Of a DNA stretch of 42,728 nt, positions 16,325 to 37,461 are shown one piece after another (position 1 is the first letter of the stretch; each line of letters opens with the position of its first letter). Made by a program: the position numbers and the translations under genes. The notes under the pieces were generated by a model. The model made no database searches and was not told the DNA's origin. It worked only from the letters and a program-made list of their open reading frames with translations. Origin of the DNA: Bacteroidota bacterium (GTDB lineage Bacteria; Bacteroidota; Bacteroidia; Palsa-965); assembly GCA_006218065.1 (NCBI GenBank), contig VBWE01000033.1:1-42728 (forward strand), given 5' to 3'.

Positions 16325-17599
16325 TCAGTAAGCGAACAGTTTATATTTCTTCATCATCGTGTTCACTTCCTTTTTCACAGTGGCGATCTTCTGCTCGTTT
16401 TCGTGGTTCATCAGCACATGATCCATCAGTTCCACGATTTTCGGAATCTGTTTTTCTTTCAGCCCGCGGGTCGTGATGGCTGGCGTGCCCACGCGGATGC
16501 CCGAGGTAACCATCGGCGACTTATCGTCGAAAGGAACCATGTTTTTGTTCACGGTGATATCGGCTTTGCCCAGTGCGAGATCGGCCTGTTTGCCGGTGAG
16601 GTTTTTCGAACGCAGGTCGATCAGCATGCAATGGTTATCGGTTCCGCCCGAAACCACGCCGTAGCCGCGTTTTACGAATTCGGCCGCCATGATCTGCGCG
16701 TTTTTCGTTACCTGCAGCGTGTACTTCATGAAAGAATCTTCGAGCGCTTCGCCGAAAGCAACCGCCTTGGACGCGATCACGTGCTCGAGCGGCCCGCCCT
16801 GCGTGCCCGGGAAAACAGCCGAATCAAGCAGTGAGCTCATGGTACGTATTTCCCCTTTGGGCGTTTTGATTCCCCAGGGATTTTCGAAATCTTTTCCCAT
16901 CAGGATGATTCCGCCGCGCGGGCCGCGTAATGTTTTGTGCGTGGTGCTGGTGATGATATGGCAATGCGGCAGCGGGTCGTTCAGTATGCCGCGTGCGATC
17001 AGGCCTGCAGGATGCGAAATATCGGCCATGAGCAAAGCGCCCACACTATCGGCGATTTTACGCAGGCGTGCATAATCCCAGTCGCGCGAGTAGGCGGAAG
17101 CGCCGCAGATGATCAGCTTCGGTTTTTCTTTCTGCGCAACGGCTTCCACGTTATTGTAATTGATGCGGCCGGTTTCTTTTTCCACGCCGTAAAAAGTAGG
17201 ACGGTAAAGTTTACCCGAAAAATTTACCGGCGATCCGTGCGTGAGGTGCCCGCCGTGTGAAAGGTCGAAACCGAGAATGGTGTCGCCGGGTTTCAGGCAG
17301 GCCAGCATCACGGCTGCGTTTGCCTGCGCGCCACTGTGCGGCTGTACGTTGGCCCATTCGGCATTAAAAAGCGTTTTCACGCGATCGATCGCGAGTTGTT
17401 CCACCTGGTCCACGATCTCGCAGCCGCCGTAATAGCGCTTGCCGGGAAGACCTTCCGCATATTTATTGGTAAGCACGGATCCCATGGCTTTCATTACCTG
17501 GTCGCTCACGAAATTTTCGGAAGCGATGAGCTCAATTCCGTGGGTTTGACGATGCAGTTCCTTTTTGATCAGGTCGAAAACAAGGGCTTCTTTTTTCAT
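16325..17599 (-). CDS. glyA: Serine hydroxymethyltransferase
   Basis: PLP enzyme interconverting serine and glycine with tetrahydrofolate as one-carbon carrier; cytoplasmic. It starts [15 protein letters not shown], continues with [12 protein letters not shown] and GKRYYGG, and contains the PLP-lysine motif [14 protein letters not shown]. The length from the ATG at 17599 is 424 residues, typical of bacterial GlyA. A longer in-frame start at 17653 is rejected because the -7 box at 17633-17640 lies between the two starts and the extra residues do not match the family. It converges with the phosphatase gene, with only 9 bases between stops. Confidence 0.97.
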
Positions 17600-17632
17600 A
17601 CGGCTTTGGACAATAAGTTGGTTGAACGAGCG

Positions 17633-17640
17633 CAAAGTTA
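17633..17640 (-). promoter_or_regulatory. Putative -7 box of glyA
   Basis: On the minus strand the sequence reads TAACTTTG, matching TAnnTTTG, 33 bases before the glyA ATG at 17599. Its position also supports the shorter glyA start. No clear -33 element. Confidence 0.45.
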
Positions 17641-17677
17641 TAGAATTTGCCAACCGGCATGCAGTCTCTTTAAGGGA

Positions 17678-17703: not shown

Positions 17704-18180
17704 TCACGATGCTTTATTCTCCTGGCGGAAAAGGTAGAAAGCCGGTACGAGTACGATAAGCAGGGCCGGTGTTTCGACCATGCCGGCAAGGAATCGCGCA
17801 ATCACGTAAAAGCGCTCGACCGATCCTGCTAAAACGCCGATGCCGTAAAATAAAAGCCCGGTGAAGAATACGGCCGAATAAGCGAGCAAGGTAATGATGA
17901 CCAGCCTGCGGTTCTGAAAAATCGCCCTGACGATCAATGCTGCAAAAGCGGCGAAGATGACCGTAAATAAAAAGGTAAGCGGCCATTTGGCATAATATAA
18001 AGTCCCGTATTCGAACGAATTTAAAAACTGCATCGAAGGAGCGACCTGCGAATCGTTGGTCTGATAATACGTAACGCGCATCTGCTCGTTGATATTTACG
18101 AATACGAATTCGCGGAAAAAACCGGTGGAGATATAAACCGCGGCCATCAATACGGCAAACCATATCCTGCGCGAATTCAT
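17704..18180 (-). CDS. Exosortase-associated membrane protein
   Basis: Protein of 158 residues with about four membrane helices (about 7-23, 68-87, 92-113 and 128-149). The first loop contains REFVFVNINEQ, then a short outside segment with YYQTNDSQV. Its start overlaps the exosortase stop by 4 bases (ATGA-type junction). Bacteroidota exosortases are commonly accompanied by a small membrane protein of this size (XrtF- or XrtX-associated types, from memory), and both position and topology fit. I cannot say which subtype it belongs to. It is probably an accessory or stability partner of the exosortase in the inner membrane. Confidence 0.72.
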   Translation of the reverse strand: MNSRRIWFAVLMAAVYISTGFFREFVFVNINEQMRVTYYQTNDSQVAPSMQFLNSFEYGTLYYAKWPLTFLFTVIFAAFAALIVRAIFQNRRLVIITLLAYSAVFFTGLLFYGIGVLAGSVERFYVIARFLAGMVETPALLIVLVPAFYLFRQENKAS

Positions 18181-18713
18181 GCGGCTTCTTTTTTACCGGG
18201 AGTGAATTTTTTCACCCAGAGCATCCATAAAGCGAAGATCAGCACATACATCAGGATCTGGAACGTGTATGTATGATTGAAATTCAACCATTCCGGTGAG
18301 ACTTCGACGATGATGCAGAGCCCGGTAACGCGCAGGATATTCGCGGCATGGATCAGGAGAATGCCCGAAGGAATAAACCAGGCTTTGTGTTTCCAGGAAC
18401 CCGGGTACGCAAGAATGAATGTGGAAAAAAGCGCAAAAAGAGTCAGCCCGTTGCACGGATCGCCGATCCAGAGTCCGTGCGTGCCATCCACACCGATTGT
18501 TCTTACGGTAGGGTTATTGTCGCTGAACGTGTCGTAACCGAACACCTGCAGCAGTTTTTCAGCGAGCGTGGCTGTATTGTTGATCACGAACTGGTCGAGC
18601 CTGCCCCAGGGGTGAAGCACCCATTCGTAAAGCAGGTACCAGCCGAGATACAGGCCAAGAAAAAAAGCAAGGAAGATAACCACCTTGCTTTTGAAAAAAT
18701 CTGTTTTAGCCAT
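18177..18713 (-). CDS. Exosortase family transpeptidase/protease (XrtF/XrtX-like)
   Basis: Inner-membrane protein of 178 residues, the short Bacteroidota type of exosortase. The catalytic triad expected for archaeo/exosortases is intact: Cys87 in GDPCNGL, Arg128 in NILRVTGL and His147 in FNHTYTF. Membrane helices are visible at about 11-29, 88-103, 112-140 and 150-168. Exosortases cut C-terminal sorting signals (motif, hydrophobic helix, basic tail) and are thought to pass the protein to another molecule, often in bacteria that make extracellular polysaccharide. The gene lies 4 bases after a small protein carrying exactly such a signal, and a polysaccharide locus begins 3 kb away. The subtype is uncertain. 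Confidence 0.88.
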   Translation of the reverse strand: MAKTDFFKSKVVIFLAFFLGLYLGWYLLYEWVLHPWGRLDQFVINNTATLAEKLLQVFGYDTFSDNNPTVRTIGVDGTHGLWIGDPCNGLTLFALFSTFILAYPGSWKHKAWFIPSGILLIHAANILRVTGLCIIVEVSPEWLNFNHTYTFQILMYVLIFALWMLWVKKFTPGKKEAA

Positions 18714-18717
18714 ACGG

Positions 18718-18951
18718 TCAGTTTCCTGACTTCTTCAGTGCATCGTAAACTTTTTTTCCGCCAAAAGCGGCTGCAGCAGCAAGAGCGATCGTAATTCCGC
18801 CGTCAACCGGGATGCATGGCGGGGGCCAGCAGGGTGGTCCGCCGCCGGGTGGCGGGGGAGGTGGTGGCGGCTGTGCGCTCAGTTCTCCGGCAGCCAGGAA
18901 GGCCATGAGGAAGAGCAGTACAGCGATCGATATATTCAGTTTCTTGTTCAT
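18718..18951 (-). CDS. Proline-rich mini-protein with PID-CTERM-like sorting signal, putative exosortase substrate
   Basis: Exported protein of 77 residues. A signal peptide covers about residues 1-26 (ending ELSA before Gln27). A proline tract of eight residues follows at once, then GGGPPCWPPPC with two cysteines (41 and 46). The tail is a complete sorting signal: PVDGG (48-52), an Ala-rich hydrophobic segment (53-65), then KK and a short basic tail. This corresponds to the PID-CTERM type known from Bacteroidota (motif PID or PVD followed by GG). After removal of both ends the mature chain would be only about 25 residues. It is the first gene of the exosortase operon with its own -7 box, so it is the obvious dedicated substrate. 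The role of the mature peptide is unknown. Confidence 0.82.
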   Translation of the reverse strand: MNKKLNISIAVLLFLMAFLAAGELSAQPPPPPPPPGGGPPCWPPPCIPVDGGITIALAAAAAFGGKKVYDALKKSGN

Positions 18952-18959
18952 TGCTTTTG

Positions 18960-18967
18960 CAAAGATA
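18960..18967 (-). promoter_or_regulatory. Putative -7 box of the exosortase operon
   Basis: The minus strand reads TATCTTTG, a full TAnnTTTG match, ending 8 bases before the ATG at 18951. It places the mini-protein, exosortase and partner in one transcription unit independent of the upstream T9SS gene. Confidence 0.5.
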
Positions 18968-18996: not shown

Positions 18997-21669
18997 TTAA
19001 TAGAAAATTTTCTTTGTGATTTCTTTATCGCCCATCTGTACGCGTACCAGGTAAATTCCGTGAGACTCCGGTACATCAAGCAATAATGTTTCGTTCTGTA
19101 CGATGGCTTGTTTGTCAGCGATGATTTCCTGTCCGAGCATATTGAATACGCTCAGGCGGATATCGGTTGCTTCACTGAACCCGAATTTGGCAAACAGTCC
19201 GTTTGCATTAGCATAAACGGAAGTCTGTGCTTCCAGGTTGGCGGCCATGGCCTGGTCTGCAAGGCGGCATCCGTCGGGTGTGCGTTTGAAGTGGAGCAGG
19301 AACGTTTTTTTGCCCGTGCTGTTCACGATAAAGCTGTATTTGCTCTGCTTGCCGAGATCGATGATTTCTCCCGTCGAAGGATCTTCCAGTGTGGCGCAGC
19401 TGTAGGTATTTACAGCATTCAGGCCTTCGAAAGTGAGGTCGTGCTGACCGAATACGGCCGGCTCCACGAAAAGCGGGATGGTGATTTCGTCTTCCTGTGC
19501 GGGATCAACGTTCATCAGCAGTTCGCTGTTGTCTGCGCCTTTGGTCCAGATATTGGCGGCAAGTTCGTACGGGCTTTCAATGAAAGGAAGATCAATTCCA
19601 ATGTCGTTGTTCCTGGTCGAATTCGGGTCGAAGTTGACAACAGCCTGGCCGCCGAGCCCGTTCATCACGCTGCGGATATTGATGCGGATAAAGTTTTCGG
19701 GATCGCCGATGCGGATGATATTGGGCAATGCAGTGGTGTTCTTACATGCTTCTGTAAATGTGATAACACCGGAGCTGGTCGCCGGGCAAAGGAAGCCCTG
19801 GTTCGGGGCAATTACTCCGCCGTTCGGGTTGGTAACGTAGCTGCCGCTTTCGGATAATACCAGGAAACTGGCGCCGAGATTGCCGGAAGCAGTAACAACG
19901 GCGGAATAAGTAACCGGGCAGGCATAAGGATTACCGACCAGGTTGTACCCGCCGCCTGATCCGCCTGCAGTGATGGGAAATGTTTTGGTACTGAAGCTCG
20001 GAATGCCGCGTGAATCATAAATGAGCGGAGCAGTAAGTCCGCTCAGGTTATCCGACATCCAGATCATGAAACCGCGGCCCGGTGTAAGTGCGGTTGCAGT
20101 AGTAGTGACGTTGCTGTACGTATTGGTCGGTTCGTTGTACGTTCTTACGGAGAAGAAAGTCGGGCAGCAGGCCGTTCCGTCATTTCCACCGACAGCGCTC
20201 ATGTAAAAACGCGTATCGTTGTCCCAGTCGCTCAGGATATTTCCGTTGATGGGGGAGGAGAGATACTGCCAGTAAGCAGATGCCGGGCCGTCGATGTACG
20301 ACTGTATGATCCAGCCGGTACCGGTTAATGAACCGCTGACCGTTCCGATCCGGGCATATGATGTTGCGCCGGCGGCATTTAGTGTGAGTGTGCCTGTTCC
20401 GCTGGTTCCGAAAAGTCCTGTGGTTACGGTGAGGAGGTTGTCGAGCGTAGCGGGAGCAACGACTTCGACACCGGGGCCGCTGTTGCTGCTGGTAATATTG
20501 TAGAAAGCAGTTATGCTCGAACCGTCGATCTGCTGAACGGGCGCTGCAGTACGGCTGAAGGTTACCGTTCCCTGGCGGGCGTCGAAAGTGGCGCTGTTGG
20601 TCCAGTTACCGCGTACGTTGATGCCGAAGTTACTTGCAGAAACATCCAGGATGCCGCCCGTGAGTTTGACATCCCCGGTGCATAAAATATCGCGGGCAAG
20701 CGTTACGGTTCCCGATCCGCTGACATTGAAGTTGTTGAATGTTTCCGTGGAGGAACGGGTTACGGTTTGCGCCCCGGTGCCTGTAAAATCAATGGTACCA
20801 ATGGATACACCAGTAACGTTACTGTTATTGGTCCAGTTGCCGGCAAGATTCAGCGAGTTGTTATTCCAGTTCAATCGCACTGCACTGGAGTTCATCGTTA
20901 TGTTGCCGTTAATATTCATCGTTCCGCCGAATACACGGTTGTAAATAGTGGATCCTGTGCCGTTGAGCACAAGGTGATGATAAGTACCCGCTTTGATCGT
21001 CGTATAGGCATTTCCATTCATCGTAACGGTATTCGGACCACTGACAGAATTGATTGTGCCTGATCCGCTGATACTTTTTGTAAGCGTTACGGAACTTCCA
21101 GTCAGCATGTTGAATGTACCGGCGATATTGAAGATATTATTGCTGTTGATTGTACCGGAGTTATTGACCGTTACACCCGGTCCGACGGAAAAGTAGTAAA
21201 TCGGTATTGCAGCAGATCCGATGAGCGACCCTGCGGCAATACTGATTGTTCCCGTTTGAAAAACCAGGGAAATATTACCTGTAAAAGACGGAAAAGCTAC
21301 CGTACTTGTAAATGTACTGGTTGCATTGATGTAAATCGTGCCGTTGTAATTGATGCTTCCGCCATTGGTAAAGGTCCCGTAAACACTTACATAAAAGCCG
21401 TTCAGGTTAAAAGCCCCTGTTCCGGCGATGGTCATGGTTCTGCAAAAGCCGTTGGTATTCAGGCCGATCGTTGTTCCGGCTGCAATAACAACATCGTCGT
21501 TGCTGTCGGGGATGCCATCTGCATCCACAGGCAGGCCCGATTGCGACCAGGATGTAGTGCTGTTCCACGGTGTCGTGGCGCCTGTAGAGGTAAATGTAGT
21601 GATCGCAGAAAGCTCGCTGCTTAAAGCAAAACAAAAAACAGCTATAATTCCGAGGGTAAGTTTATGCAT
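18997..21669 (-). CDS. T9SS-exported beta-helix-like surface protein
   Basis: Protein of 890 residues with a signal peptide (1-22, cleavage after SELSA). Residues about 25-440 are rich in Gly, Asn, Thr and Ser and consist of short repeating strands such as GTINSNNIFNIAGTFN and LAGNWTNNSNV, as in right-handed beta-helix or autotransporter-like passengers. The middle (about 440-640) contains aromatic segments such as YWQYLSSPING and GYNLVGNPYACP. Residues about 800-890 are a T9SS type A sorting domain (LSVFNMLGQEI, then HGIYLVRVQMGDKEITKKIFY). A surface adhesin or matrix protein is likely from composition and export route; no enzyme motif was seen. It is transcribed divergently from the polysaccharide locus. 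Confidence 0.86.
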   Translation of the reverse strand: MHKLTLGIIAVFCFALSSELSAITTFTSTGATTPWNSTTSWSQSGLPVDADGIPDSNDDVVIAAGTTIGLNTNGFCRTMTIAGTGAFNLNGFYVSVYGTFTNGGSINYNGTIYINATSTFTSTVAFPSFTGNISLVFQTGTISIAAGSLIGSAAIPIYYFSVGPGVTVNNSGTINSNNIFNIAGTFNMLTGSSVTLTKSISGSGTINSVSGPNTVTMNGNAYTTIKAGTYHHLVLNGTGSTIYNRVFGGTMNINGNITMNSSAVRLNWNNNSLNLAGNWTNNSNVTGVSIGTIDFTGTGAQTVTRSSTETFNNFNVSGSGTVTLARDILCTGDVKLTGGILDVSASNFGINVRGNWTNSATFDARQGTVTFSRTAAPVQQIDGSSITAFYNITSSNSGPGVEVVAPATLDNLLTVTTGLFGTSGTGTLTLNAAGATSYARIGTVSGSLTGTGWIIQSYIDGPASAYWQYLSSPINGNILSDWDNDTRFYMSAVGGNDGTACCPTFFSVRTYNEPTNTYSNVTTTATALTPGRGFMIWMSDNLSGLTAPLIYDSRGIPSFSTKTFPITAGGSGGGYNLVGNPYACPVTYSAVVTASGNLGASFLVLSESGSYVTNPNGGVIAPNQGFLCPATSSGVITFTEACKNTTALPNIIRIGDPENFIRINIRSVMNGLGGQAVVNFDPNSTRNNDIGIDLPFIESPYELAANIWTKGADNSELLMNVDPAQEDEITIPLFVEPAVFGQHDLTFEGLNAVNTYSCATLEDPSTGEIIDLGKQSKYSFIVNSTGKKTFLLHFKRTPDGCRLADQAMAANLEAQTSVYANANGLFAKFGFSEATDIRLSVFNMLGQEIIADKQAIVQNETLLLDVPESHGIYLVRVQMGDKEITKKIFY

Positions 21670-21704: not shown

Positions 21705-21712
21705 CAAATATA
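21705..21712 (-). promoter_or_regulatory. Putative -7 box of the 890-residue T9SS cargo gene
   Basis: The minus strand reads TATATTTG, 35 bases before the ATG at 21669. A 5-bp inverted repeat AGTCT/AGACT (21675-21693) lies in the leader. It shares the 177-base divergent region with the promoter of the polysaccharide locus. Confidence 0.45.
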
Positions 21713-21846: not shown

Positions 21847-24279
21847 ATGAAGCAGGGTCAGGAAAAACAAGGCAGCATAGTCAATCTTAGTGATATCAGC
21901 CGGATTTGGAGTATTGTCCGGAAGAACTGGTGGATATTGGTCATCATGCTGATCATATCTTTTTTCTCTGCGTACCTGTATTCCTATAAAATCACGGATA
22001 TTTATTCTTCCAGCCTGCAATTGCTGCTGAAATCCAACGATCAGTACAACAGTTCGAGCCTGATTACCGACAATTACGGCGGTTTCTATGGAAATACCTA
22101 TAAAACCTACATTGATAATTCGAATGAAACCCGGGTTCTGCGTTCGTATGACCTGATTGAAAAGGCGATCGCCCGGTTGAATTTCGATGTCTCTTATTTT
22201 ATTGTGGGACGGATCAGGACACAGGAAGTGTATTCCGGGGTCCCTTTCCGGATTAATGCGCAAACTATCGGAACCTCATTGTATGAAGTTCCGATCAAAT
22301 TCAAAGTTTTGAATTACAATGAATTTGAGCTGACATACACCAAGCCCGGGGCAACGGAAGAGTCGGTGAAAAAAGGCAGTTTCGGTAAAGAAATCGTCGA
22401 TCCCGATTTTAAAATAAGCGTAACCCGCCTGTTCTCGAAAGAAGCGGAGGAAAGCATCAAAAGAATTGAATATGTAGTTCAATTACATCAGCGTAATACT
22501 GTAATTTCCAGGTATATGAATTCACTGGTAGTTACAAACCCCGAGTACACCAACATCCTGCAATTATCCGTTAACGATGAGATACCGGAAAGGGCGGTCA
22601 CCTTCCTCGATACATTGGCCCAGGTATATATTGAAAACTCGCTTACTTCCCGCCTCGACGTAAATAAGAATACGCTTTTCTTCATTGAACGGCAGATGGA
22701 AGAAGTATCCTCAATCCTGAGCAATATCGAAGATACCATGCAGCGGTATAAAGAGGACAAGGCGATTCTCGATTTACAGAAAGAAGGCGACGGGTATTTC
22801 AATAAACTGAGCCGGTATGATGCGGACAAGAACAGCCTTCGCCTGCAGGTGGAAGCCCTGAATGACCTGGAGAACTATATCATCGCAGACAAAGACCCGG
22901 AATTTCTGCCCCCGTCGATTTATGTAAACGTGACCGACAACTTTCTCCTGAAGTCCACTTCGGAACTGTACGACATGCAGATCAGGCTGAATGATGCGAT
23001 GATTTCGGCAACCCCGGATAACTTTGCCATCAGGCAGTTTAAGACCAAGATCCTTGCCCTGAAGAAAAATATGCTGACGTATATCGGCAATTCCAGGCTG
23101 GCTACCCATCAGAAAATCGAGGATGTCGAGGTTCAGATACAGGAGCAGATCGGTCACATAAAAGAACTGCCCTACAAACAGCGCGGCCTGATCAATATTC
23201 AGCGCAGGCTGAAAGTGAACGAGGATATGTACATTTTCCTGCTGCAGAAAAGAGCCAACACGATCATTTCGAGAGCCGGGATCGTACCGGAAACCAAAGT
23301 TATTGAAACTGCCCGTCCCATGGGTATTGTCAGTCCCGACAAGCCGCGGATCATGTACACTTTTGTCGCCATCGGTCTTGTTATCGGCCTTGGTATTATT
23401 GTCATCCGTGTCATGCTCTTCTCGCGCATCGAGACATACGAACAATTAAAAGCCATTACACATCTTCCCGTTGTGGGCGATGTTCTGCTTTATCCTACGG
23501 CTACGGAGCTTGTCGTAGCTGTTGAGCATGATCCCAAATCCCCGCTGGCCGAGTCATTCCGGACGATCCGGACGAATCTGCAGTTTATGGCCACCAACCA
23601 GGGACCGCAGGTTATCGTTATTACCTCGAACGGACCGGGTGAAGGAAAAACTTTTTGTTCCATCAACATTGCGGCCATCCTGGCCAAGGCCGGAAAAAAA
23701 GTACTCCTGCTGGAACTCGATCTTCATAAACCCCGTATCCAGAAAGGATTCAAGCTGGAAGCCGATGTGGGGATCAGTACTATCGTGATTGGAAAAAGCA
23801 CCATCCCGGAATCGATCAAATCAACGCAGGTTGAAAACCTGGACGTCATTCTTTCCGGTCCGCTTCCGCCGAATCCATCCGAAATGATCCTGAATCCCCG
23901 TATGCTGGAAATCTTTGATTTCGCACGGGAACATTACGAATATATTATTGTGGATACGCCCCCGGTCGGGCTCATCACCGATGCGATGGTGCTGATGAAA
24001 AACGGCGATATCAACCTGTTTGTGCTGAATACGAAATTCGCTTACCGCGATGCTGTGAGAAATGCACATGAAATCGTGGCGCTGAACAAATTCAACAATT
24101 TCGGTTTTGTCCTGAACGGCGTGAAACGACGCAGGAACAAATACTACTATAACCGCTATAACTACAACTACCAGTACGGCTACAGCGGTTATGGTTCCTA
24201 CGGATCATACGGTTCCTACGGCTCTTACGGGGACGATCCGGGCAGGCGAAAAAAGAAAAGTAAAGACCGATCTTCATGA
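21847..24279 (+). CDS. Wzc-like polysaccharide chain-length protein with BY-kinase
   Basis: Inner-membrane tyrosine autokinase of 810 residues controlling polysaccharide assembly or export. Residues 1-27 are cytoplasmic, with one helix at about 28-46. A periplasmic Wzz-type domain with long coiled-coil segments (about 270-460) follows, then a second helix at about 500-520. The BY-kinase (about 560-760) has Walker A SNGPGEGKT (Lys601), Walker A' LLLELDLHKPR and Walker B YIIVDTPPVG. The C-terminal tail has 13 tyrosines between about residues 762 and 797, ending in four GSY repeats, the usual site of autophosphorylation. A basic tail closes the protein. Its stop overlaps the next start by 4 bases, tying it to the ABC exporter. 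No outer-membrane export channel (Wza type) or BY-kinase phosphatase is in the window. Confidence 0.94.
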   Translation: MKQGQEKQGSIVNLSDISRIWSIVRKNWWILVIMLIISFFSAYLYSYKITDIYSSSLQLLLKSNDQYNSSSLITDNYGGFYGNTYKTYIDNSNETRVLRSYDLIEKAIARLNFDVSYFIVGRIRTQEVYSGVPFRINAQTIGTSLYEVPIKFKVLNYNEFELTYTKPGATEESVKKGSFGKEIVDPDFKISVTRLFSKEAEESIKRIEYVVQLHQRNTVISRYMNSLVVTNPEYTNILQLSVNDEIPERAVTFLDTLAQVYIENSLTSRLDVNKNTLFFIERQMEEVSSILSNIEDTMQRYKEDKAILDLQKEGDGYFNKLSRYDADKNSLRLQVEALNDLENYIIADKDPEFLPPSIYVNVTDNFLLKSTSELYDMQIRLNDAMISATPDNFAIRQFKTKILALKKNMLTYIGNSRLATHQKIEDVEVQIQEQIGHIKELPYKQRGLINIQRRLKVNEDMYIFLLQKRANTIISRAGIVPETKVIETARPMGIVSPDKPRIMYTFVAIGLVIGLGIIVIRVMLFSRIETYEQLKAITHLPVVGDVLLYPTATELVVAVEHDPKSPLAESFRTIRTNLQFMATNQGPQVIVITSNGPGEGKTFCSINIAAILAKAGKKVLLLELDLHKPRIQKGFKLEADVGISTIVIGKSTIPESIKSTQVENLDVILSGPLPPNPSEMILNPRMLEIFDFAREHYEYIIVDTPPVGLITDAMVLMKNGDINLFVLNTKFAYRDAVRNAHEIVALNKFNNFGFVLNGVKRRRNKYYYNRYNYNYQYGYSGYGSYGSYGSYGSYGDDPGRRKKKSKDRSS

Positions 24280-27470: not shown

Positions 27471-28554
27471 ATGGAAAAACGGACGATCCAGATATCGCAG
27501 CCTTGTCTCGGCGAGGAAGAATGGCAGGCCATCCGCGAGCCTTTGTTCAGCGGCTGGGTTACGCAGGGCCCGAAAGTAAAAGAGTTCGAACGGCTTTTTG
27601 CAGAACGCCACGGCGTAAAACATGCGATTGCCGTTTCCAATTGCACCACGGCGCTGCACCTTGCACTGCTGGCGGCCGGCGTGGGTCCCGGCGACGAAGT
27701 GCTTGTTCCTGCGTTTACCTGGGTAGCTACGGCCAATGCCGTTTTATATTGCAATGCGAAACCGGTGTTCGTGGATATCGACCCGGTAACGTTCAACATC
27801 GATCCGTCGAAAATAAAAGAGAAACTCAGCGCACGCACCAAAGCCATTATCCCCGTTCATCTTTTCGGCCTTTGTGCCGATATGGATGCGATCCGGAAAG
27901 CTGCGCCGGGAATAAAGATCGTGGAAGATGGCGCCTGCGCTGCCGGGGCAGCCTATAAAGGCGTTTCAGCGGGAAGGCGGCATGATCACCACCAACAACG
28001 ATGCTCTTGCTCATCATGCGGATGTGTTACGCAATCATGGGGCTTCGGTTTCCGAAGAGCAACGCCACAAAGGTCCGCGCCCGTATATCCTGCCCGATTT
28101 TGAAGTGATGGGGTTCAACTACCGCATGACCGATCTGCAGGGCGCAGTGGGTGTGGTACAGATCAAAAAACTGGACCAGTACATTGACGAGCGCCAGGAA
28201 CGGGCTGCGTGGTACAATGAAAAATTCAAAAACATCGCCTGGCTCCGGACACCGGCTTACAGTGCTGATTATAAACACGGCTGGCAATCGTACGTGCTTT
28301 TCATCGACGAAAAAAAATCGCCGATGAAACGGAATGATATCATGGAATACCTGCAGCAGAAAGGCATCAGCACAAGACCGGGAACACATGCCGTGCATAT
28401 GCTGACGTTTTATGCAAACTTGTACGGGCTGAAGCCTTCCGATTTTCCGGGCGCAGAAGCGGCCAACAACTTTTCGATGTCCATTCCGCTGCATAACCGC
28501 ATGTCTGAAGAAGATTATGCCTATGTTGCAGAGGCCATTCAAGCTATTTCTTAA
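27471..28554 (+). pseudogene. DegT/DnrJ/EryC1 sugar aminotransferase, frameshifted and lacking the PLP-lysine segment
   Basis: The first part (27471-27962) encodes the normal N-terminus: GWVTQGPKVKEFE, SNCTTALHLALLAAGVGPGDEV, PAFTWVATANAV, IIPVHLFG and VEDGACAAGAAYKG. The protein should continue with about 20 residues of the type VGxxGDxxxFSFHxxKxITTG, which carry the PLP lysine, and then EGGMITTNN. Here only 10 bases separate the AYKG codons from the EGG codons, which are in another frame. The rest (27973-28554) is a good C-terminal half (VLRNHGASVSE, FNYRMTDLQGAVG, STRPGTHAVH). The loss is probably about 56 bases (any 3n+2), removing the catalytic lysine and the frame. The upstream frame runs on to a stop at 28103. 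Either a real deletion or an assembly error; as read, the enzyme cannot work. Confidence 0.82.
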
Positions 28555-28566
28555 AAGGGAATTTTC

Positions 28567-30462
28567 ATGTGCGGAATCGCAGGCGTTTTTAATATCGGGG
28601 GAGATCCCGTTTCTATAAGCGATGTCAAGCAGATGACGCGTGCACTGGCGCATCGCGGCCCTGACGGAGAAGGTATTTTTGCAGACGAGAACATCGGGCT
28701 GGGGCATCGCCGGCTGGCTATCCTGGATACTTCCGAAAAAGGCGCACAGCCCATGCAGTCGCATAACGGGGAATGGATCGTCGTTTTCAACGGGTGCATT
28801 TACAATTACATGGAACTGAAGACGGAACTGAGGTCGCTCGGTCATTCTTTTGTTTCCACCACCGATACAGAAGTCATTACGGAAGGGCTGGCTGCCTGGG
28901 GACCATCGGTTTTTGAACGTTTCGACGGGATGTTTGCCGTAGGCGCCTGGCATAAACCGAGCCGCACGCTGTATCTCAGCCGCGACCGTTACGGTGTAAA
29001 ACCATTGTACTACTGGACGAACGGAAAAATTTTCCTTTTCGGATCGGAGATCAAAGCGTTTTTTCCGCACCGCGCATTTTCAGTCAGCGTAAACACCAGC
29101 GCGCTGAACGAATACTTTACATTCCAGAACCTGTTCACGTACCAGACGCTCTTTAACGGCGTGTTCAGTTTGCCGCCTGCGAATACGGTTAAAATCGACT
29201 CCGGTTTTAACGGCACCGTGAAGCATCGTCCCTGGTGGGATTATGACTTTACGAAAGTGGATAATAAAATGACTTTTGAAGATGCGAACCAGGAAACGCA
29301 GCGCCTCTTCAAAAATGCCGTTGCGCGCCAGATGATCGCCGATGTGCCTGTGGGAAGTTACCTTTCCGGGGGCATGGATTCGGCATCCATTACGGCCATC
29401 GCGAGCCGCCACGTGCCCCGCCTTGTAACGTTTACAGCAGGTTTTGACATGAGCGAGGTGACCGGCGTTGAAGCCAATTACGATGAACGGCGCGATGCAG
29501 AACTCATCGCCAACCATTTTAAAACAGAGCATTACGAACAGGTGATCAATGCCGGGGACCTGCGCTGGTCGCTTCCGCGCGTGGTCTGGCATATCGAAGA
29601 CCTTCGCGTGGGGATGAGTTACCCGAATTATTATATCAGCCGCCTCGCATCGAAATTCGTGAAGGTATGCCTGCAGGGAACCGGCGGAGACGAATTGTAC
29701 GGCGGTTATCCCTGGCGCTATTACCGTGTTTTCCAGTCGCTGGACCAGCAGTCGTTTTTCAAAAACTATTATGGATTCTGGCAACGGCTTGTCGCCGATG
29801 AGGATAAAGTGAAACTGTTTCACAGCGATGTATATAAGCAGGTGGACCTGGCTCAGCCGAGGAAAGTTTTTGAACGCGTATTTACATTCAACGACCTGCT
29901 CCGCTACGACACGCCGGAAAACCATATTGAAAACAGCCTGTACTTTGAAATAAAAACGTTTCTCCCGGGGCTGCTGCTGGTTGGCGATAAGCTGGCCATG
30001 GCCAATGGCCTCGAAGAACGGTTCCCGTTCCTGGACAACGAACTGGTCGCTTTTGCACAAACGATCCCGGCCCGGCATAAACTCGGTAACCTGGAGCAGA
30101 TGAAACGGCTCGATGAAAACGTGATGGGGCCGCAGAAAAAAGCGTACAAGGAATTCGACGACGGGAAAAGCGTACTCCGGAAAGCCATGTCCGACTTTCT
30201 GCCCGATGCCATTGTAAACAGGAAGAAGCAGGGCTTCTCGGCGCCGGATGAATCCTGGTATCGTGGGGAAAACGCCCAATATGTAAAAGAACTGCTGCTC
30301 GACAAAAAGAACGCAAGCCGTGATTATATCAACCCGGATTTTGTGGCGCATATCATCGACGAGCACATGAATAAACGGATCAACCACCGCCTGCTCATCT
30401 GGTCGCTGATGAATTTCGAATGGTGGTGCCGCCTGTTTATCCAAAATGAAAAATTTGAATGA
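28567..30462 (+). CDS. asnB: Glutamine-dependent asparagine synthetase-like amidotransferase
   Basis: Protein of 631 residues with two domains. The class II glutamine amidotransferase domain begins with the catalytic Cys2 (MCGIAGVF) and includes AHRGPDGEG and FNGCIYNY. The synthetase domain has the ATP-pyrophosphatase loop YLSGGMDSASITA and the motif GTGGDELYGGYPWRYY. Length and motifs fit AsnB. Inside a polysaccharide locus, such enzymes are often thought to amidate a sugar acid of the glycan instead of making free asparagine; that is inference from context. It follows the aminotransferase by 12 bases and overlaps the next gene by 4. Confidence 0.9.
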   Translation: MCGIAGVFNIGGDPVSISDVKQMTRALAHRGPDGEGIFADENIGLGHRRLAILDTSEKGAQPMQSHNGEWIVVFNGCIYNYMELKTELRSLGHSFVSTTDTEVITEGLAAWGPSVFERFDGMFAVGAWHKPSRTLYLSRDRYGVKPLYYWTNGKIFLFGSEIKAFFPHRAFSVSVNTSALNEYFTFQNLFTYQTLFNGVFSLPPANTVKIDSGFNGTVKHRPWWDYDFTKVDNKMTFEDANQETQRLFKNAVARQMIADVPVGSYLSGGMDSASITAIASRHVPRLVTFTAGFDMSEVTGVEANYDERRDAELIANHFKTEHYEQVINAGDLRWSLPRVVWHIEDLRVGMSYPNYYISRLASKFVKVCLQGTGGDELYGGYPWRYYRVFQSLDQQSFFKNYYGFWQRLVADEDKVKLFHSDVYKQVDLAQPRKVFERVFTFNDLLRYDTPENHIENSLYFEIKTFLPGLLLVGDKLAMANGLEERFPFLDNELVAFAQTIPARHKLGNLEQMKRLDENVMGPQKKAYKEFDDGKSVLRKAMSDFLPDAIVNRKKQGFSAPDESWYRGENAQYVKELLLDKKNASRDYINPDFVAHIIDEHMNKRINHRLLIWSLMNFEWWCRLFIQNEKFE

Positions 30463-31547
30463 ACCAGCCGCCTGACATGCGAAGCGGCGCCTGGCCGGAA
30501 GCACAAGAGGCCGTGGATTTTCTGAAGCGGAGTGAAAGCAGCCTGCTTTATGTTTCACCGGGATATCTCGGTTTGCTGGGCGAGTATCTTCAGCCGTCGA
30601 AACAGGAATTGCTTCGCTGCGTTTCCGGCGGTAAAACGGTCGGTTATTTCCCGCTTGTTTTTCGTCTCAACGAACAATTCGGCAATGTCTGCAACAGCCT
30701 GCCGTATTACGGGAGCAACGGAAGCATCATAGTTGATCCAGCGCTGGCCCCCGAAGAACGGGAAGACGTGAGGTTGCAGCTGCTGCACGAAGCGCAAAAA
30801 AAAATCAGCGATTATAACTGCGTTTCCGCTACAGTAATCACCAACCCGCTGGACCAGGAAGGGGCAGGGTGGATCCGCGATCATTTTGAGCACGATCTTA
30901 TCGATCAGCGCATCGGGCAACTGACCCCGCTTCCCGCGAAAAGTGAACGCACAGGCGAAGAGTTGCTGGAAATGTTTGATGATCCCCGCCCGCGGAATAT
31001 CCGCCGCGCGATAAAAGAAGGCATATCGGTCCGTTATACGCAGTCGCCCAAAGACATCGATTTCCTGTACGAAGTGCATCACGAAAATATTACGTCGATC
31101 GGCGGTATTCCGAAAGAGCGGCGTTTTTTTCACCTGCTGCCGAAGCATTTCGATGAAAACGGTTTTCGTATTTATATCGCCGAACTGAACGGTGAAAAAA
31201 TTGCGGCCCTGCTTCTTTTTTATTTCAACCGGACGGTCGAATATTTCACCCCGGCTGTTGTCGAAAAGCACCGGCAGCTTCAGCCTTCCGCTTTACTGAT
31301 CTATAAAGCGATGGCGGATGCGGTTGACCTGGATTACCGCTGGTGGAACTGGGGCGGAACCTGGCTTTCACAGGGTGGTGTGTATGATTTCAAGAAACGT
31401 TGGGGAACGCAGGATTACCCGTATTTTTACTACACGAAAATTTATGATGAAGGTATTCTGAGTTGCGATAAAGAAACCTTGCTTCGCGAATACCCGTACT
31501 TTTTTGTAGCGCCTTTCAACAAACTGAAACAAGCCAATCAAACCTGA
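30459..31547 (+). CDS. FemAB/GNAT-like acyltransferase
   Basis: Predicted cytoplasmic protein of 362 residues with the duplicated GNAT layout of FemAB-like proteins. The N-terminal half contains SGGKTVGYFPLVFR and NSLPYYGSNGSII. The C-terminal half contains YIAELNGEKIAALLLFYFNRTVEYFTPA, then ALLIYKAMADAV and WNWGGTW, then GVYDFKKRWGT. FemAB-related enzymes transfer an amino acid or acyl group to an amino or hydroxyl group; in a glycan locus this suggests acylation of an amino sugar. Donor and acceptor are unknown. The ATGA overlap with the preceding amidotransferase suggests coupled translation. Confidence 0.72.
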   Translation: MNQPPDMRSGAWPEAQEAVDFLKRSESSLLYVSPGYLGLLGEYLQPSKQELLRCVSGGKTVGYFPLVFRLNEQFGNVCNSLPYYGSNGSIIVDPALAPEEREDVRLQLLHEAQKKISDYNCVSATVITNPLDQEGAGWIRDHFEHDLIDQRIGQLTPLPAKSERTGEELLEMFDDPRPRNIRRAIKEGISVRYTQSPKDIDFLYEVHHENITSIGGIPKERRFFHLLPKHFDENGFRIYIAELNGEKIAALLLFYFNRTVEYFTPAVVEKHRQLQPSALLIYKAMADAVDLDYRWWNWGGTWLSQGGVYDFKKRWGTQDYPYFYYTKIYDEGILSCDKETLLREYPYFFVAPFNKLKQANQT

Positions 31548-32216: not shown

Positions 32217-32828
32217 ATGGATCTTTCCAAAGTGGAGAAACTGTACACGGAGAATATCGAAAAATTCGGTATCGACTCGCGCAGCGTGGGCTGGAACAGT
32301 CCCGAATCGCAAAACCTGCGTTTCTCGAAATTGCTCGAAATGGTCACCGATCCGGAAACACCTTTTTCGATCAACGAAGTCGGCTGCGGGTACGGTGAAC
32401 TTTATAAATACATGCTCACGCATGCGTATGCGGTAAATAAATTCACCGGTTACGATATCAGCGACAAGATGCTGGAAAACGCGCGGATCTATTTAGGTAA
32501 CGACAGCCGCGTCGATCTGCGCAAAGCCGCTGCTATCGATACTGAAGCCGATTACTCGGCCACCTCCGGAATATTCAACGTGAAATTCGATGAGCAGGCC
32601 GACCGCTGGGAAGATTATATCAAAGAAATGATCCTGAATATGCATCGTTTCTCCCGGAAAGGTTTTTCGTTCAACCTGCTTACTTCGTACGTGGACTTTC
32701 ATGCGCCCGACCTGTATTATGCCGATCCCGCCGTGTTTTTCGATTTCTGCAAACGGGAATGTTCGAAGAAGGTCGCGCTTTTGCACGATTACCCGTTGTA
32801 TGAGTGGACGATCATAGTTCGGAAATAA
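32217..32828 (+). CDS. SAM-dependent class I methyltransferase
   Basis: Protein of 203 residues with the SAM-binding motif I INEVGCGYGELYKYM (52-66), followed by TGYDISDKMLENAR (motif II region). The rest of the fold is present but short. It probably methylates a sugar or a precursor of the glycan. A methyl cap would fit the C-terminal reader domain of the Wzt-like ATPase, but this link is only an inference. The next gene begins 1 base after its stop. Confidence 0.82.
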   Translation: MDLSKVEKLYTENIEKFGIDSRSVGWNSPESQNLRFSKLLEMVTDPETPFSINEVGCGYGELYKYMLTHAYAVNKFTGYDISDKMLENARIYLGNDSRVDLRKAAAIDTEADYSATSGIFNVKFDEQADRWEDYIKEMILNMHRFSRKGFSFNLLTSYVDFHAPDLYYADPAVFFDFCKRECSKKVALLHDYPLYEWTIIVRK

Positions 32829-32829
32829 G

Positions 32830-33750
32830 ATGCAGCACTGGAAGAAACTCGGTCTTGTTTTTCAACCCGACAGCCGGTTGTACTGGCAGCGTTCGCATGC
32901 CGCGCTTCCCACGCACCTGCACCTGCACGACGATATTTTCCGGATATATTTCACCAGCCGCGATGAGCATAATTGTACGTACACGGGCTGGTTCGAAATC
33001 GATATTACACAACCGCATAATATCCTGCGTAAAAGCGAGGAGCCGGTTTTATCGCCCGGCCCCCTTGGTTTTTTCGACGATCACGGCGTGCAGACCACGA
33101 GTATCGTGAAGCATGGCGACCGGCTTTACCTGTATTATTTAGGCTGGAACCCGGGACTGACAGCGCCGCTGTTTTATACGTCTATCGGGTTGGCTACCAG
33201 CGACGACGGCGGGCTTACTTTTCAGAAATATTCGCCGGCCCCGGTCATGGAACGCAGCAAACACGATCCCTGGATGGTTTCCGGCGGAACGGTTAGACTG
33301 GAAAACGGCGTTTGGCGCATGTGGTACATTTCCGGTCAGAAATTTGAGCTGACTGCAACCGGTGCGAAATCGTATTATGATATCCGTTACGCGGAATCTG
33401 CCGACGGGATAAACTGGAAACGGGAAGGATATATTTGCCTGCCGCTCCGCGAAAATGAAACGAATATTTCGAGACCGGCTATCATCCTGGAAAACGGCGT
33501 TTACAAAAGCTGGTTCCCGGTAAAAAAAGAAGGGAGCGGTTATCGCATCGGTTACGCGGAATCGCCCGACGGGCTGAACTGGAAACGGCTGGATGAACTT
33601 GCGGGTATCACTGTTTCTGCCGAAGGCTGGGATTCGGAAGCGCTCGACAAAGTGGACATCATATTGCACAAAGGGAAAAAATACATGCTGTATAATGGCA
33701 ACCGCTTCGGCTTCGACGGTATCGGCATGGCTGTGGAGGAAGCACGATGA
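32830..33750 (+). CDS. GH43/GH32-like five-bladed propeller protein without signal peptide
   Basis: Protein of 306 residues built of repeats with sugar-propeller signatures: LHLHDDIFRIYFTSRD, GVQTTSIVKHGDRLYLYYLGW, KHDPWMVSGGTVRLENGVWRMWY, RYAESADGINWKREG and GYAESPDGLNWKRLD. These resemble the GH43/GH32/GH130 propeller group, where blades are formed from SxDGxxW-type motifs. There is no signal peptide or membrane helix, so it should stay in the cytoplasm, unusual for a glycan-degrading enzyme. It may be a glycoside phosphorylase-like or non-catalytic sugar-binding protein. Catalytic residues cannot be assigned with confidence. Confidence 0.7.
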   Translation: MQHWKKLGLVFQPDSRLYWQRSHAALPTHLHLHDDIFRIYFTSRDEHNCTYTGWFEIDITQPHNILRKSEEPVLSPGPLGFFDDHGVQTTSIVKHGDRLYLYYLGWNPGLTAPLFYTSIGLATSDDGGLTFQKYSPAPVMERSKHDPWMVSGGTVRLENGVWRMWYISGQKFELTATGAKSYYDIRYAESADGINWKREGYICLPLRENETNISRPAIILENGVYKSWFPVKKEGSGYRIGYAESPDGLNWKRLDELAGITVSAEGWDSEALDKVDIILHKGKKYMLYNGNRFGFDGIGMAVEEAR

Positions 33751-34478
33751 ACCCGATGGAAAATTTCCTGGTTACGCTGGATATCGACTGGGCGCCGGAT
33801 TATATGCTGGACGAAATTTCCGCTTTGCTGGAAGCCAAAAAAGTCCGTGCCACCTGGTTTGTAACACACGACAGTCCTTCCGTCAGGCGGATCGCGGCTC
33901 ACCCGCTTTTCGAAGCAGGTATCCATCCTAATTTTCTTCCGGGATCATCTCACGGCAACACGACGGAGCAGGTGCTGGCGCATCTTCTTCAAATTATTCC
34001 CGGCGCAGTGAGTACACGTTCGCATGCCGTAGTCCAGTCGGGCCCGGTGCTGCATGCACTTTCGGAACGGCTGAAAATCGATTCGACTATTTTCCTCCCG
34101 GAAATGCCGGGCATAAAACCGGTGCGGCATCTCGGCCATAACAACAGCCTGCTGCGCGTTCCGTTTTACTGGGCCGACGATTATGAATTATGCAAAACCG
34201 ATCGCTGGACGGCCCCCGAGAAACTCGCTGCAAAAGAAGGACTCAAGGTGGTGATGTTTCACCCGGTTCATATATTTTACAATACGCCGGATATCGCGTT
34301 TTACAATGAGCTGAGAACACGGTTCCCGGATTTGCTCAACCTGCCGTATGATAATGCAAAAATCCTGCGTCATCAAGGACAAGGATCAGGTTCCTTTTTC
34401 ACCGATTTGGTTACATTTACCGGCAACAATGCGTCATACCGGATGAAAGATATTCCTGCGTTTTACCCGGAAATCTGA
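33747..34478 (+). CDS. Polysaccharide-deacetylase-like protein, cytoplasmic
   Basis: Protein of 243 residues of the NodB/deacetylase fold. The first strand ends in VTLDIDWAPD (Asp12, Asp14), where the family has its catalytic/metal-binding aspartates. The candidate metal-binding histidines are His60 and His69 in GIHPNFLPGSSHG. A later motif STRSHAVVQSGP (Arg91, His93) fits the next conserved region. The C-terminal half includes LKVVMFHPVHIF. Without a signal peptide it would act on a nucleotide- or lipid-linked sugar before export. It overlaps the propeller gene by 4 bases, suggesting joint action. Confidence 0.75.
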   Translation: MNPMENFLVTLDIDWAPDYMLDEISALLEAKKVRATWFVTHDSPSVRRIAAHPLFEAGIHPNFLPGSSHGNTTEQVLAHLLQIIPGAVSTRSHAVVQSGPVLHALSERLKIDSTIFLPEMPGIKPVRHLGHNNSLLRVPFYWADDYELCKTDRWTAPEKLAAKEGLKVVMFHPVHIFYNTPDIAFYNELRTRFPDLLNLPYDNAKILRHQGQGSGSFFTDLVTFTGNNASYRMKDIPAFYPEI

Positions 34479-34495: not shown

Positions 34496-35590
34496 ATGAA
34501 TCAGTCCGACCGACAGCGCGTTTTGCATATCGCCCGCAGCCTTGTTAAAAGGCTGCAACTCAATCTCGACGGACTCCGGGTAGTTACCGAATGTGCAAGC
34601 GGGTCGTATGCCCTGACGCCGGTGATGGCCCTGATGGCCGGGGCGAAAGTATACAGCATCGGCCGCGATACGCGTTACGGAAAATTTTCCGACCTGTCGG
34701 AACAGGTAGGCTTGTTGTGCAGCGAAGCCGGTTTACAAACGCAACCGGAGTTTTCGGAAAAAGAAAATTTCACCGGCTGGCCCGATGCCGACATCGTACT
34801 CAATTCCGGCATGATCCGCCCGATCACGGCAGACGTCATAAACCGGATGAAATCTACAGCCGTTATTCCGCTGATGTGGGAAACCTGGGAATTCCGTCCC
34901 GGCGAAATCGATCTTTCCGCCTGCAGAAAAAAAAATATTCCCGTGATCGGCACCAACGAAAATTACCCGCTGGCCGATATGTACAAATACCCGGGCATGC
35001 TGGCCATCCGGCTGATGTTCGATCTGAAAATCGATGTGGCCAATAACCGGATTGCCTTGCTGGGCGGGGCGCTGACGGGCAGGCTGATCGCGGATACGTT
35101 CCGGAAACTGGGCCTGGAATATGCCTGGTTTACTTCCGGCGGAAAAGAAAACGATCCGGATTGTTTTTCATACGAACAGATGCCCGCGAAACTGAAAACA
35201 TTCGAACCGGACGTGATTCTTTTCGCAGAGCATCATGACCGGCGGCAACTGTTCGGAAAAGAAGCGGAACTGGGCTTTGAAAAACTCGCGCAGGATTTTC
35301 CCGATGTCCGGATCGGGCATATCTGCGGAAACATCGATGCGGACGATTTACAAAAAAGCGGGCTTGTTTTCGCGCCGGAAATAATCGCTCCGTTCGGTTA
35401 TATGAGCTACCTGCCCGAAGTACTCGGTCCAAAACCCGGTATGGTACTCAGTATCGCAGGACTCAAAGTGGGAGAGATCGCGGCACGTGCGCGGCTGAGC
35501 GGGGCAAGTGCGGAAGAAGCGATCCGGGCAACGGTGCAACACGGTGTGGGACAGGATTTCGAAGGCGGTTTTTTTAATCTTACGATATGA
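34496..35590 (+). CDS. Uncharacterised Rossmann-fold enzyme of the polysaccharide locus
   Basis: Protein of 364 residues that I do not recognise by name. It appears to have two alpha/beta domains. The first (about 1-140) contains RVVTECASGSYALTPVMALM and IPLMWETWEFRPGEIDL. The second begins with a glycine-rich nucleotide-binding motif RIALLGGALTGRLIADTF (from about residue 185) and continues to about 330. The layout recalls 2-hydroxyacid dehydrogenases or adenosylhomocysteinase-like proteins, with the cofactor domain in the second half. The catalytic histidine-acid pair of those families is not clearly visible. It overlaps the next gene by 4 bases. Its role in glycan synthesis is unknown. Confidence 0.6.
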   Translation: MNQSDRQRVLHIARSLVKRLQLNLDGLRVVTECASGSYALTPVMALMAGAKVYSIGRDTRYGKFSDLSEQVGLLCSEAGLQTQPEFSEKENFTGWPDADIVLNSGMIRPITADVINRMKSTAVIPLMWETWEFRPGEIDLSACRKKNIPVIGTNENYPLADMYKYPGMLAIRLMFDLKIDVANNRIALLGGALTGRLIADTFRKLGLEYAWFTSGGKENDPDCFSYEQMPAKLKTFEPDVILFAEHHDRRQLFGKEAELGFEKLAQDFPDVRIGHICGNIDADDLQKSGLVFAPEIIAPFGYMSYLPEVLGPKPGMVLSIAGLKVGEIAARARLSGASAEEAIRATVQHGVGQDFEGGFFNLTI

Positions 35591-37461
35591 TCAGGCGTTT
35601 CTGGCATAGCCTTGAAGGAAGAAGAACCTGGTTTTTTCTTTTTGCCGCACTGGCGCTCGTCGGTGCAGAGTATGCGGTTGATGTACTGATCGGTGACGGT
35701 GACGGGCGGCTGACCCAGCCGCTGGTCCTGTTATTGCTGAACGGAATTTTCTATTTCCTGCTGGCCTGCGCGGTTTTCTGTTTTTCATTTGAGTTTGAAA
35801 AAACATCCGGGCGTATTTCGGACTGGTTCGGGCGTTTTTTTTCGGAAACGATGAACCCGCAGTTCCTCGGCATATTCCGGATCAGTTTTGCCATCCTCGC
35901 TTTAATCCTGCTGTTTACCTCGCACCAGCTCATCGGTTTTATCAATTACGCCGCTAGTACGGAAGAACTGGAACGGCTGCACCTGTTTTTTTATTTTGAA
36001 ATCGCGAGCCTGGTACTGATCCTCTTCGGCATCGGTGGGCGGATCCCGTATATCTTCAGTTTCATTTACGGCAGCCAGTACCTGCACGGCGATGTAGGTA
36101 CGCACCTGTTCAACATGATCAGTTTCTGGAGTATTTTCATGGGACTCGACCGGGGACTGGCGATCCGGTTTACGATCCCGGTAAAAGCGCTCGATGTTTT
36201 ATTCAATCTCCGTTTGCCCGCCCTGAAATGGCCCGTGATCCTGATGGCGCTGAACCTGGGCTATACGGTAACCACAGCGGGCGTTTCCAAGGCGTTCGAC
36301 CCGGTCTGGCTGCACCACATGGGTTTTTATTACACGTACCTGCAACCCTGGCTGCACGGCGATACGTTTGACTTTATCGTGGATCAGAAATGGCTTATGG
36401 TTACCATGAACTGGCTCACTATTATTTCGGAGAGCATAGCTTTCCCGTTACTTCTTTTTCGCCGCACGCGCCTGGCGGGAGCAATCTGCATGGTGCTTAT
36501 GTTCATGCTGCTTACGTACCCGTTCCGGATCGATGCCATCGGACCCTTCGGCCTGATCATGAGCCTGCTTGTACTGGCTGCCTGCACACGGTTCGACAAT
36601 TTCCGTTTCCGTTTTCTGCCCTCCTCCGAGCCGATCAGCGAAGAAGGAAAAAGATCGGCATTGCTTGCGGTTTACGGGGCCTTCGGTTTCCTGCTCGGGA
36701 CGTGGATATGGTTGTCTGTTTATTACGATGTATGCCGTGAATATGCCAAAGGCGGATTCAAATACCCGCGTGCCGAATACCCGTATTACGTACAGGGCAG
36801 ACCGGCAATACCGCAATATCCTAAAGCGCCCGACCTGTTCAGGCTTCCGTTCCTCGATCGTTTATCGCCCGCATTCATTTACGATACCGGGAATAAACTG
36901 ACATTTTACAAAGTCGGTCCCGGCTGGTATGCGCCGTTCAATTTTCAGCACGTGATCGGGCGCTGCTATTTTCGGGTGATCGCCGTGAAAGATGGAAAAG
37001 AGCAGGAACTCATCCCGGTATTCAGCGAGCAGGGAAATCTCAATTCCACCCCGTTTTCCGGGCGCGTCTTGCAGGAACGTGCGGTATCAAACAGGATATG
37101 GCTTTTCGGGCTGATCGGGCATAAGCTCGCTTCCCGGTTCGATCGTACGGTTATTAATCCGCAGCAGGAAAAAGAAGCGCTGGCATTTTTCAGGTTTTTC
37201 AGTGAAAAATATGGTGAACTAAAAGGCTGGGAAGGATGCGATATCCGTTTGGATATCCGTTTCATCGACCTTCCGCCCCGGTACGAAGGATTAAAAAAGA
37301 CCTGGCTGCAGTCGCCCTGGACAAAACTGTTGTACTATTCATCGGCCGCCGGCACCATGGATATTATGGAACAACCGCCCCGGCTGGATCTGCGTGCGTA
37401 TGATTTCCCATATTTGCGTGACGGGAAAATTTATTTTGCTCCATTGACACCATATCCTTAA
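35587..37461 (+). CDS. HTTM-like multi-pass membrane protein
   Basis: Protein of 624 residues with about nine or ten membrane helices in the first 385 residues. The segment FLGIFRISFAILALILLF (about 97-114) and the later helix LKWPVILMALNLGYTVTTAGVSK match the HTTM (vitamin-K carboxylase-related) membrane fold as I remember it. A C-terminal soluble part of about 240 residues (about 385-624) is rich in aromatic residues and contains no motif I know. In other bacteria HTTM proteins are mostly uncharacterised. In this position it may modify a lipid-linked or membrane-bound glycan intermediate. Family assignment is moderate. Confidence 0.58.
   Translation: MIRRFWHSLEGRRTWFFLFAALALVGAEYAVDVLIGDGDGRLTQPLVLLLLNGIFYFLLACAVFCFSFEFEKTSGRISDWFGRFFSETMNPQFLGIFRISFAILALILLFTSHQLIGFINYAASTEELERLHLFFYFEIASLVLILFGIGGRIPYIFSFIYGSQYLHGDVGTHLFNMISFWSIFMGLDRGLAIRFTIPVKALDVLFNLRLPALKWPVILMALNLGYTVTTAGVSKAFDPVWLHHMGFYYTYLQPWLHGDTFDFIVDQKWLMVTMNWLTIISESIAFPLLLFRRTRLAGAICMVLMFMLLTYPFRIDAIGPFGLIMSLLVLAACTRFDNFRFRFLPSSEPISEEGKRSALLAVYGAFGFLLGTWIWLSVYYDVCREYAKGGFKYPRAEYPYYVQGRPAIPQYPKAPDLFRLPFLDRLSPAFIYDTGNKLTFYKVGPGWYAPFNFQHVIGRCYFRVIAVKDGKEQELIPVFSEQGNLNSTPFSGRVLQERAVSNRIWLFGLIGHKLASRFDRTVINPQQEKEALAFFRFFSEKYGELKGWEGCDIRLDIRFIDLPPRYEGLKKTWLQSPWTKLLYYSSAAGTMDIMEQPPRLDLRAYDFPYLRDGKIYFAPLTPYP

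Follow-up and report, generated by a model that had tools for sequence, protein, structure and literature searches.

At least one species of Bacteroidota needs its exosortase to form biofilms (PMC10936215), and for the exosortases of this phylum substrates and purpose have been reported as unknown (PMC10936215; PMC12188702). A locus in the genome of a Bacteroidota bacterium (contig VBWE01000033.1) raises the question of what an exosortase might do with a single, very small substrate. We analyzed the whole 42,728-nucleotide stretch of DNA around this locus, hereafter called the window. A preliminary description of the stretch had proposed a self-contained exosortase operon of three tightly spaced genes, and the genes and their spacing were borne out. 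The mini-protein, exosortase and membrane-partner genes abut on the minus strand of the window, with a gap of 4 nt between the first two and an overlap of 4 nt between the last two:

18718 to 18951, minus strand: PID-CTERM mini-protein, 77 aa (NF046080, 27.9 bits, cut-off 26; the sole match above the cut-off in the genome)
18814 to 18831, minus strand: CWPPPC motif, residues 41-46 of the mini-protein (exact in 65 of 100 pattern hits, 3 spurious)
18721 to 18810, minus strand: C-terminal sorting signal of the mini-protein, residues 48-77, consisting of PVDGG, a hydrophobic segment and a basic tail (NF046080 matches residues 48-70)
18177 to 18713, minus strand: exosortase X (XrtX), 178 aa, with Cys87, Arg128 and His147 (NF046081, 196.6 bits, cut-off 170)
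17704 to 18180, minus strand: XrtX-associated membrane protein, 158 aa, 4 TM (NF046082, 62.6 bits, below the cut-off of 75)

Since all three proteins fall in named NCBIfam families (PID_CTERM, XrtX and XrtX-associated), the trio belongs to a known kind. It shares families, gene order and type of sorting signal with the set NF046081, NF046080 and NF046082, of which it is an ordinary member with a single two-Cys substrate. The score of the exosortase against NF046081 was far above chance. The enzyme also narrowly passed the XrtF model TIGR04128 (92.1 bits, cut-off 90), but the XrtX model fits far better, and genuine XrtF genomes score about 211-222 bits. With the motif PVDGG, an XrtX-type enzyme and one substrate in the genome, the locus falls outside the PEP-CTERM/XrtA group. 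The third gene had been taken for a small membrane partner; its position, length and TM content fit this, and from its score we regard it as a homologue in the same position rather than a formal member of NF046082. Cys87, Arg128 and His147 of the exosortase are located where they had been placed and never vary in two alignments, one of 31 and one of 40 sequences, and the family predicts a protease/transpeptidase activity. The predicted structure of XrtX is confident (pLDDT 92.6), and no related solved structure was found by sequence or by the fold of this model. Our literature search returned no use of the term "PID-CTERM", and its matches for XrtX were unrelated.

The mini-protein carries a signal peptide that, read by eye, ends in ...ELSA, and its predicted mature part spans Q27-G52. 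At 26 aa, this is close to the chain of about 25 residues expected from the preliminary description, as is the overall picture of a Pro-rich protein with a complete sorting signal: PVDGG occupies residues 48-52, and a hydrophobic stretch rich in Ala leads from it to a KK tail. Membership in PID-CTERM is thus indicated by the score and by the motif at the C-terminus, followed by a helix and a basic tail. A Cys pair just ahead of the sorting motif, most often in the form CWPPPC, was present in 91 of the 96 XrtX-linked mini-proteins of the tree set. Of the five exceptions, L065, L067, L094 and L114 fall outside the main XrtX clade, whereas L237 sits within it and looks like a case of secondary loss. 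Genomes with other exosortases were also sampled, and nearly all of the PID-CTERM proteins taken from them lacked the pair. The best-scoring XrtX genomes, G065 and G175 (249 bits), encode 4-5 PID-CTERM proteins each, and those read have no Cys pair, whereas the type found in the window is a single CWPPPC substrate. In G175, one PID-CTERM match (L141, C1:2167132-2167203) lies inside a 995-codon open frame and possibly belongs to a large protein with the same tail. The strict conservation of such a tiny Pro/Gly stretch fits the earlier suggestion that the peptide is a carrier or attachment point rather than an enzyme.

We then asked how closely the enzyme and the mini-protein are linked. The source genome (G000, 5.26 Mb) encodes one exosortase and, in a search for further tails of this type, one PID-CTERM protein above the cut-off. 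A survey of 396 genomes of the class, in which "XrtX proper" was defined by an E value below about 1e-38 and not by the curated cut-off, found XrtX proper in 127. PID-CTERM proteins were also present in 122 of these 127, and exactly one was found in 108. Gene order was likewise kept across the class: among 116 non-redundant XrtX loci, the mini-gene lay at most 300 nt upstream of XrtX in 92, and a homologue of the membrane partner lay at most 100 nt directly downstream in 101. Six loci that had apparently lost the mini-gene (L106, L167, L100, L090, L225 and L113) proved to contain it with a D to N or similar change, the search pattern having been too narrow. The preliminary description had named mini-proteins without the tail, and genomes with a mini-protein and no exosortase, as observations that would speak against a substrate relation. 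The tail persists in homologues, altered no further than by D to N or comparable substitutions (a slightly changed motif is seen, for example, in CWPPPCVPVNGG), and only 7 of 191 PID-CTERM genomes had no match to the exosortase model. Because the tail is kept and such genomes are rare, the relation survives both tests. A single dedicated substrate encoded in cis is thus well supported.

The claim that the operon is self-contained did not hold. Directly upstream of the mini-gene lies a gene for a protein exported by type IX secretion (T9SS):

18997 to 21669, minus strand: T9SS-exported protein, 890 aa, with a signal peptide, a beta-rich body, an un-named domain and a T9SS type A C-terminal domain (TIGR04183, 34.3 bits, cut-off 23)
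19006 to 19218, minus strand: T9SS type A C-terminal sorting domain, residues 818-888 (TIGR04183)
19225 to 19764, minus strand: un-named domain ahead of the T9SS signal, 180 residues, with Cys758 and Cys801 (alignment A6)

The TIGR04183 score above the cut-off, together with a signal peptide read by eye, places the protein among T9SS type A cargo. Its gene ends 45 nt upstream of the mini-gene, and gaps of 1-51 nt separate the two genes in the set that was measured. A T9SS homologue was found directly upstream of the module in 22 of 61 loci (window included) and in 36 of the 116 XrtX loci. Nine other genomes of the order gave a best match to the 890-aa protein with E below 1e-40. In 8 of them this match was on the XrtX/PID contig, mostly directly adjoining, and identity was 33-48% in the best-matching genomes. 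Judged by this gene order, the T9SS gene is a conserved fourth member of the unit. The partner in cis is not obligatory, since 80 of the 116 XrtX modules have no T9SS homologue directly upstream; many of them have a divergent Wzc gene there.

The family definitions NF046081, NF046080 and NF046082 apparently do not include the T9SS gene, and it might be a chance neighbor of an ordinary XrtX/PID-CTERM system. T9SS cargo genes are frequent in the source genome, with at least 150 type A matches. Chance is nonetheless already disfavored, and we consider it very improbable, given the orthologues in the equivalent position within the order and a test on a second batch of genes. For this batch, 35 PID genes were retrieved as a fixed list prior to any inspection and scored blind with a profile trained on the first batch. 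A T9SS gene was located directly upstream of 20 of the 35 PID genes as opposed to 6 of 706 control genes (Fisher p = 8e-25), a ratio that is only approximate because the controls came from XrtX loci instead of complete genomes.

The pairing extends to mini-genes that are not close to an exosortase gene. Among PID-CTERM genes mostly located away from XrtX, the next upstream gene on the same strand ended in a T9SS sorting domain in 48 of 72 cases. In genomes with multiple PID genes, each mini-gene that was fetched (L137-L149) had its own T9SS gene ahead of it, and one of these genomes contained a tandem array of the form T9SS-PID-T9SS-PID (L148). In two loci (L080 and L219) the T9SS/PID pair sat together on the strand opposite XrtX. 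A family with a different exosortase had five mini-genes, each behind a gene with the partner domain. The mini-gene thus stays with T9SS genes even far from the exosortase. The three families of the module are already named. What is new here, and can be tested, is this conserved pairing of mini-substrate and T9SS cargo gene. No description of it was found in the literature searched, which included passages from papers covering both type IX secretion and exosortases.

The tight operon order and the presence of one mini-gene per cargo gene recall T9SS type B cargo with its PorP/SprF shuttles (PMC12618676). By analogy, the mini-protein could act as a membrane-tethered periplasmic chaperone or export aid for the T9SS protein, which cleavage by XrtX would release or remove. 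We consider this quite unlikely: a folded domain is not expected in a Pro/Gly peptide of about 26 residues, and the partner carries a type A signal, all of which are recognized by PorV (PMC12618676).

The fourth gene also bears on where transcription starts. Two candidate promoter elements were noted:

18960 to 18967, minus strand: TATCTTTG, the -7 box of the preliminary description (pattern match; it begins 16 nt upstream of the mini-gene's ATG)
21705 to 21712, minus strand: TATATTTG, putative -7 box for all four genes (fits TAnnTTTG and lies 43 nt upstream of the T9SS gene's ATG)

The three genes had been thought to share the first of these boxes. The box is present, and its position implies an almost leaderless message for the mini-gene. 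It is poorly conserved, however: of 10 loci checked within the order, only L108, a locus without an upstream T9SS gene, had a -7 box ahead of the mini-gene. TATCTTTG was therefore rejected as the main promoter. The transcription unit probably begins one gene upstream and comprises, in order, the T9SS gene, the mini-gene, xrtX and the membrane-partner gene.

The four genes are flanked as follows:

21847 to 24279, plus strand: Wzc-like polysaccharide co-polymerase/tyrosine kinase, divergent neighbor (TIGR01007, 172 bits)
16325 to 17653, minus strand: glyA (SHMT), conserved downstream neighbor (SHMT accounts for 15 of 53 next-downstream genes and occurs within 54 of 116 loci)

Across the class, glyA often follows the exosortase module in the same orientation, as part of the operon or by mere synteny. 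A Wzc homologue was found within 73 of the 116 XrtX loci. The divergent Wzc kinase was the first upstream gene in 18 of the 61 loci; in the window, it lies beyond the T9SS gene. Past Wzc, the other strand carries an ABC-2/Wzt export pair, sugar enzymes, an asparagine-synthase-like gene and a FemAB-like gene. A DegT/PseC-like sugar aminotransferase in this region (27471-28554) is split over two frames, with the N-terminal half at 27471-28103 and the C-terminal half at 27928-28554, which represents a frameshift, a pseudogene or an assembly error. Within the polysaccharide cluster, 32217-32828 and 33747-34478 had no match in NCBIfam, 34496-35590 had none in Pfam and NCBIfam, and 35587-37461 had none in Pfam.

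The asparagine-synthase-like and FemAB-like genes adjoin each other at 28567-31547 and match models associated with XrtA/PEP-CTERM below the curated cut-offs. They thus resemble, below cut-off, genes connected with exosortase systems and with the linking sugar of T9SS. Comparable side-by-side loci are discussed in PMC7468200, and the two genes recall the VimA/WbpS link proposed there between T9SS and CTERM systems. A linking-sugar pathway of this kind as a constant neighbor was rejected and kept as a lead only: the other XrtX loci fetched, of a few kilobases each, contained no homologue.

As a rule, exosortases are associated with clusters of polysaccharide genes (PMC1569441; PMC12188702). The Wzc, ABC-2, Wzt, asparagine-synthase-like and FemAB-like genes on the other strand, with Wzc in 73 loci, could therefore mean that the peptide decorates or anchors an exopolysaccharide and makes no direct contact with the T9SS protein, the cluster merely collecting envelope genes. 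This reading is unlikely in our estimate, as the mini-gene trails T9SS genes also where XrtX is distant and where a genome has several copies, and the T9SS partner has a characteristic domain.

That domain lies just ahead of the T9SS signal, and a Pfam search with the window member gave no match. In a search of the 396 genomes, 34 of the 38 best matches (at least 130 bits; some are part of the profile itself, others are not) were located directly upstream of a PID or XrtX gene. Weaker matches occurred in long T9SS-like proteins that do not adjoin PID genes. The Cys pair of the domain is invariant in alignment A6, whose 24 partners were chosen for that pair. Among domain-matching partners, those of two-Cys mini-proteins had the first Cys in 37 of 45 cases, as opposed to 1 of 34 for those of other mini-proteins. 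This co-variation tracks clades, and its one phylogenetically independent case is L237, where Cys is missing in both mini-protein and partner. The second Cys column was unaligned in 32 of the 34 Cys-less partners. Five two-Cys mini-proteins (L069, L074, L092, L124 and L125) have partners without the Cys pair, which speaks against an obligatory intermolecular disulfide. The Cys pairs of domain and mini-protein largely co-vary; given the five exceptions and the distribution by clade, this supports a relation between the two proteins and does not prove a disulfide.

These observations suggest a four-gene surface-protein module, a reading to which we give about an even chance. The mini-protein would be exported by Sec and stay anchored in the inner membrane through its C-terminal helix. 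XrtX would cut it near PVDGG by means of its Cys/Arg/His site, and the new C-terminus would probably be transferred onto a lipid or glycan produced by the adjoining polysaccharide cluster. For exosortases in general, PMC7468200 summarizes cleavage near the motif and a proposal that some compound of unknown nature receives the new C-terminus. The freed peptide of about 26 residues, a Pro/Gly rod with a CWPPPC loop, may then serve as a dedicated, non-enzymatic adaptor or anchor of the T9SS partner. The un-named domain just ahead of the T9SS signal would recognize it, with the peptide QPPPPPPPPGGGPPCWPPPCIPVDGG as the candidate ligand of the domain at 19225-19764. Since the peptide is short and exported, has a conserved motif and comes with a protease of its own, it might instead be a secreted signal. 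We judge this highly improbable: the Cys/Pro motif is conserved across many families and does not show strain-specific variation, and no receptor or regulator gene recurred in the neighbor tallies made.

Known systems resemble this module in part. The XrtF system of Flavobacterium johnsoniae (TIGR04128, TIGR04127) likewise has an exosortase followed by a small membrane partner. Deletion of xrtF or of the partner gene abolishes biofilm, and these deletions cause the same biofilm and colonization defects as deletions of porU and porZ (PMC10936215). The shared phenotypes would fit a common surface pathway, though the exosortase is of another type. Two genomes with a genuine XrtF enzyme (L305 and L308) encode Pro-rich mini-proteins that end in PIDNG or PIDGH plus a hydrophobic tail; these are candidate XrtF substrates and have no adjacent T9SS gene. 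XrtA-type genomes encode many, usually larger, substrates with a PEP motif. In contrast, the window has one mature peptide of about 26 residues with P[IVL]DGG; a membrane exosortase, a tripartite C-terminal signal and a polysaccharide neighborhood are shared with the PEP-CTERM/EpsH (XrtA) system (PMC1569441). The type A signal of the window partner is common to cargo anchored by PorU and A-LPS in Porphyromonas gingivalis, for which no exosortase peptide was found described in the accessible text of PMC7468200. Rhombosortase/GlyGly-CTERM and myxosortase also involve a membrane protease that cuts a C-terminal signal, but they differ from XrtX in an unrelated protease family, larger substrates and type II secretion. 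In Vibrio, a moiety containing glycerophosphoethanolamine is added and is required for surface anchoring (quoted in PMC7468200).

The T9SS pairing gives exosortase mini-substrates a concrete, testable role and names a candidate partner and a candidate binding domain. It also ties exosortase processing to T9SS surface proteins, a link posed as an open question in PMC7468200. More broadly, and tentatively, since we put the chance at somewhat less than even, the exosortase system and T9SS, so far regarded as separate sorting systems, may form one surface-display pathway in Bacteroidota, in which a C-terminally conjugated peptide made by an exosortase would be the dedicated receptor or anchor of a T9SS protein with the matching un-named domain.
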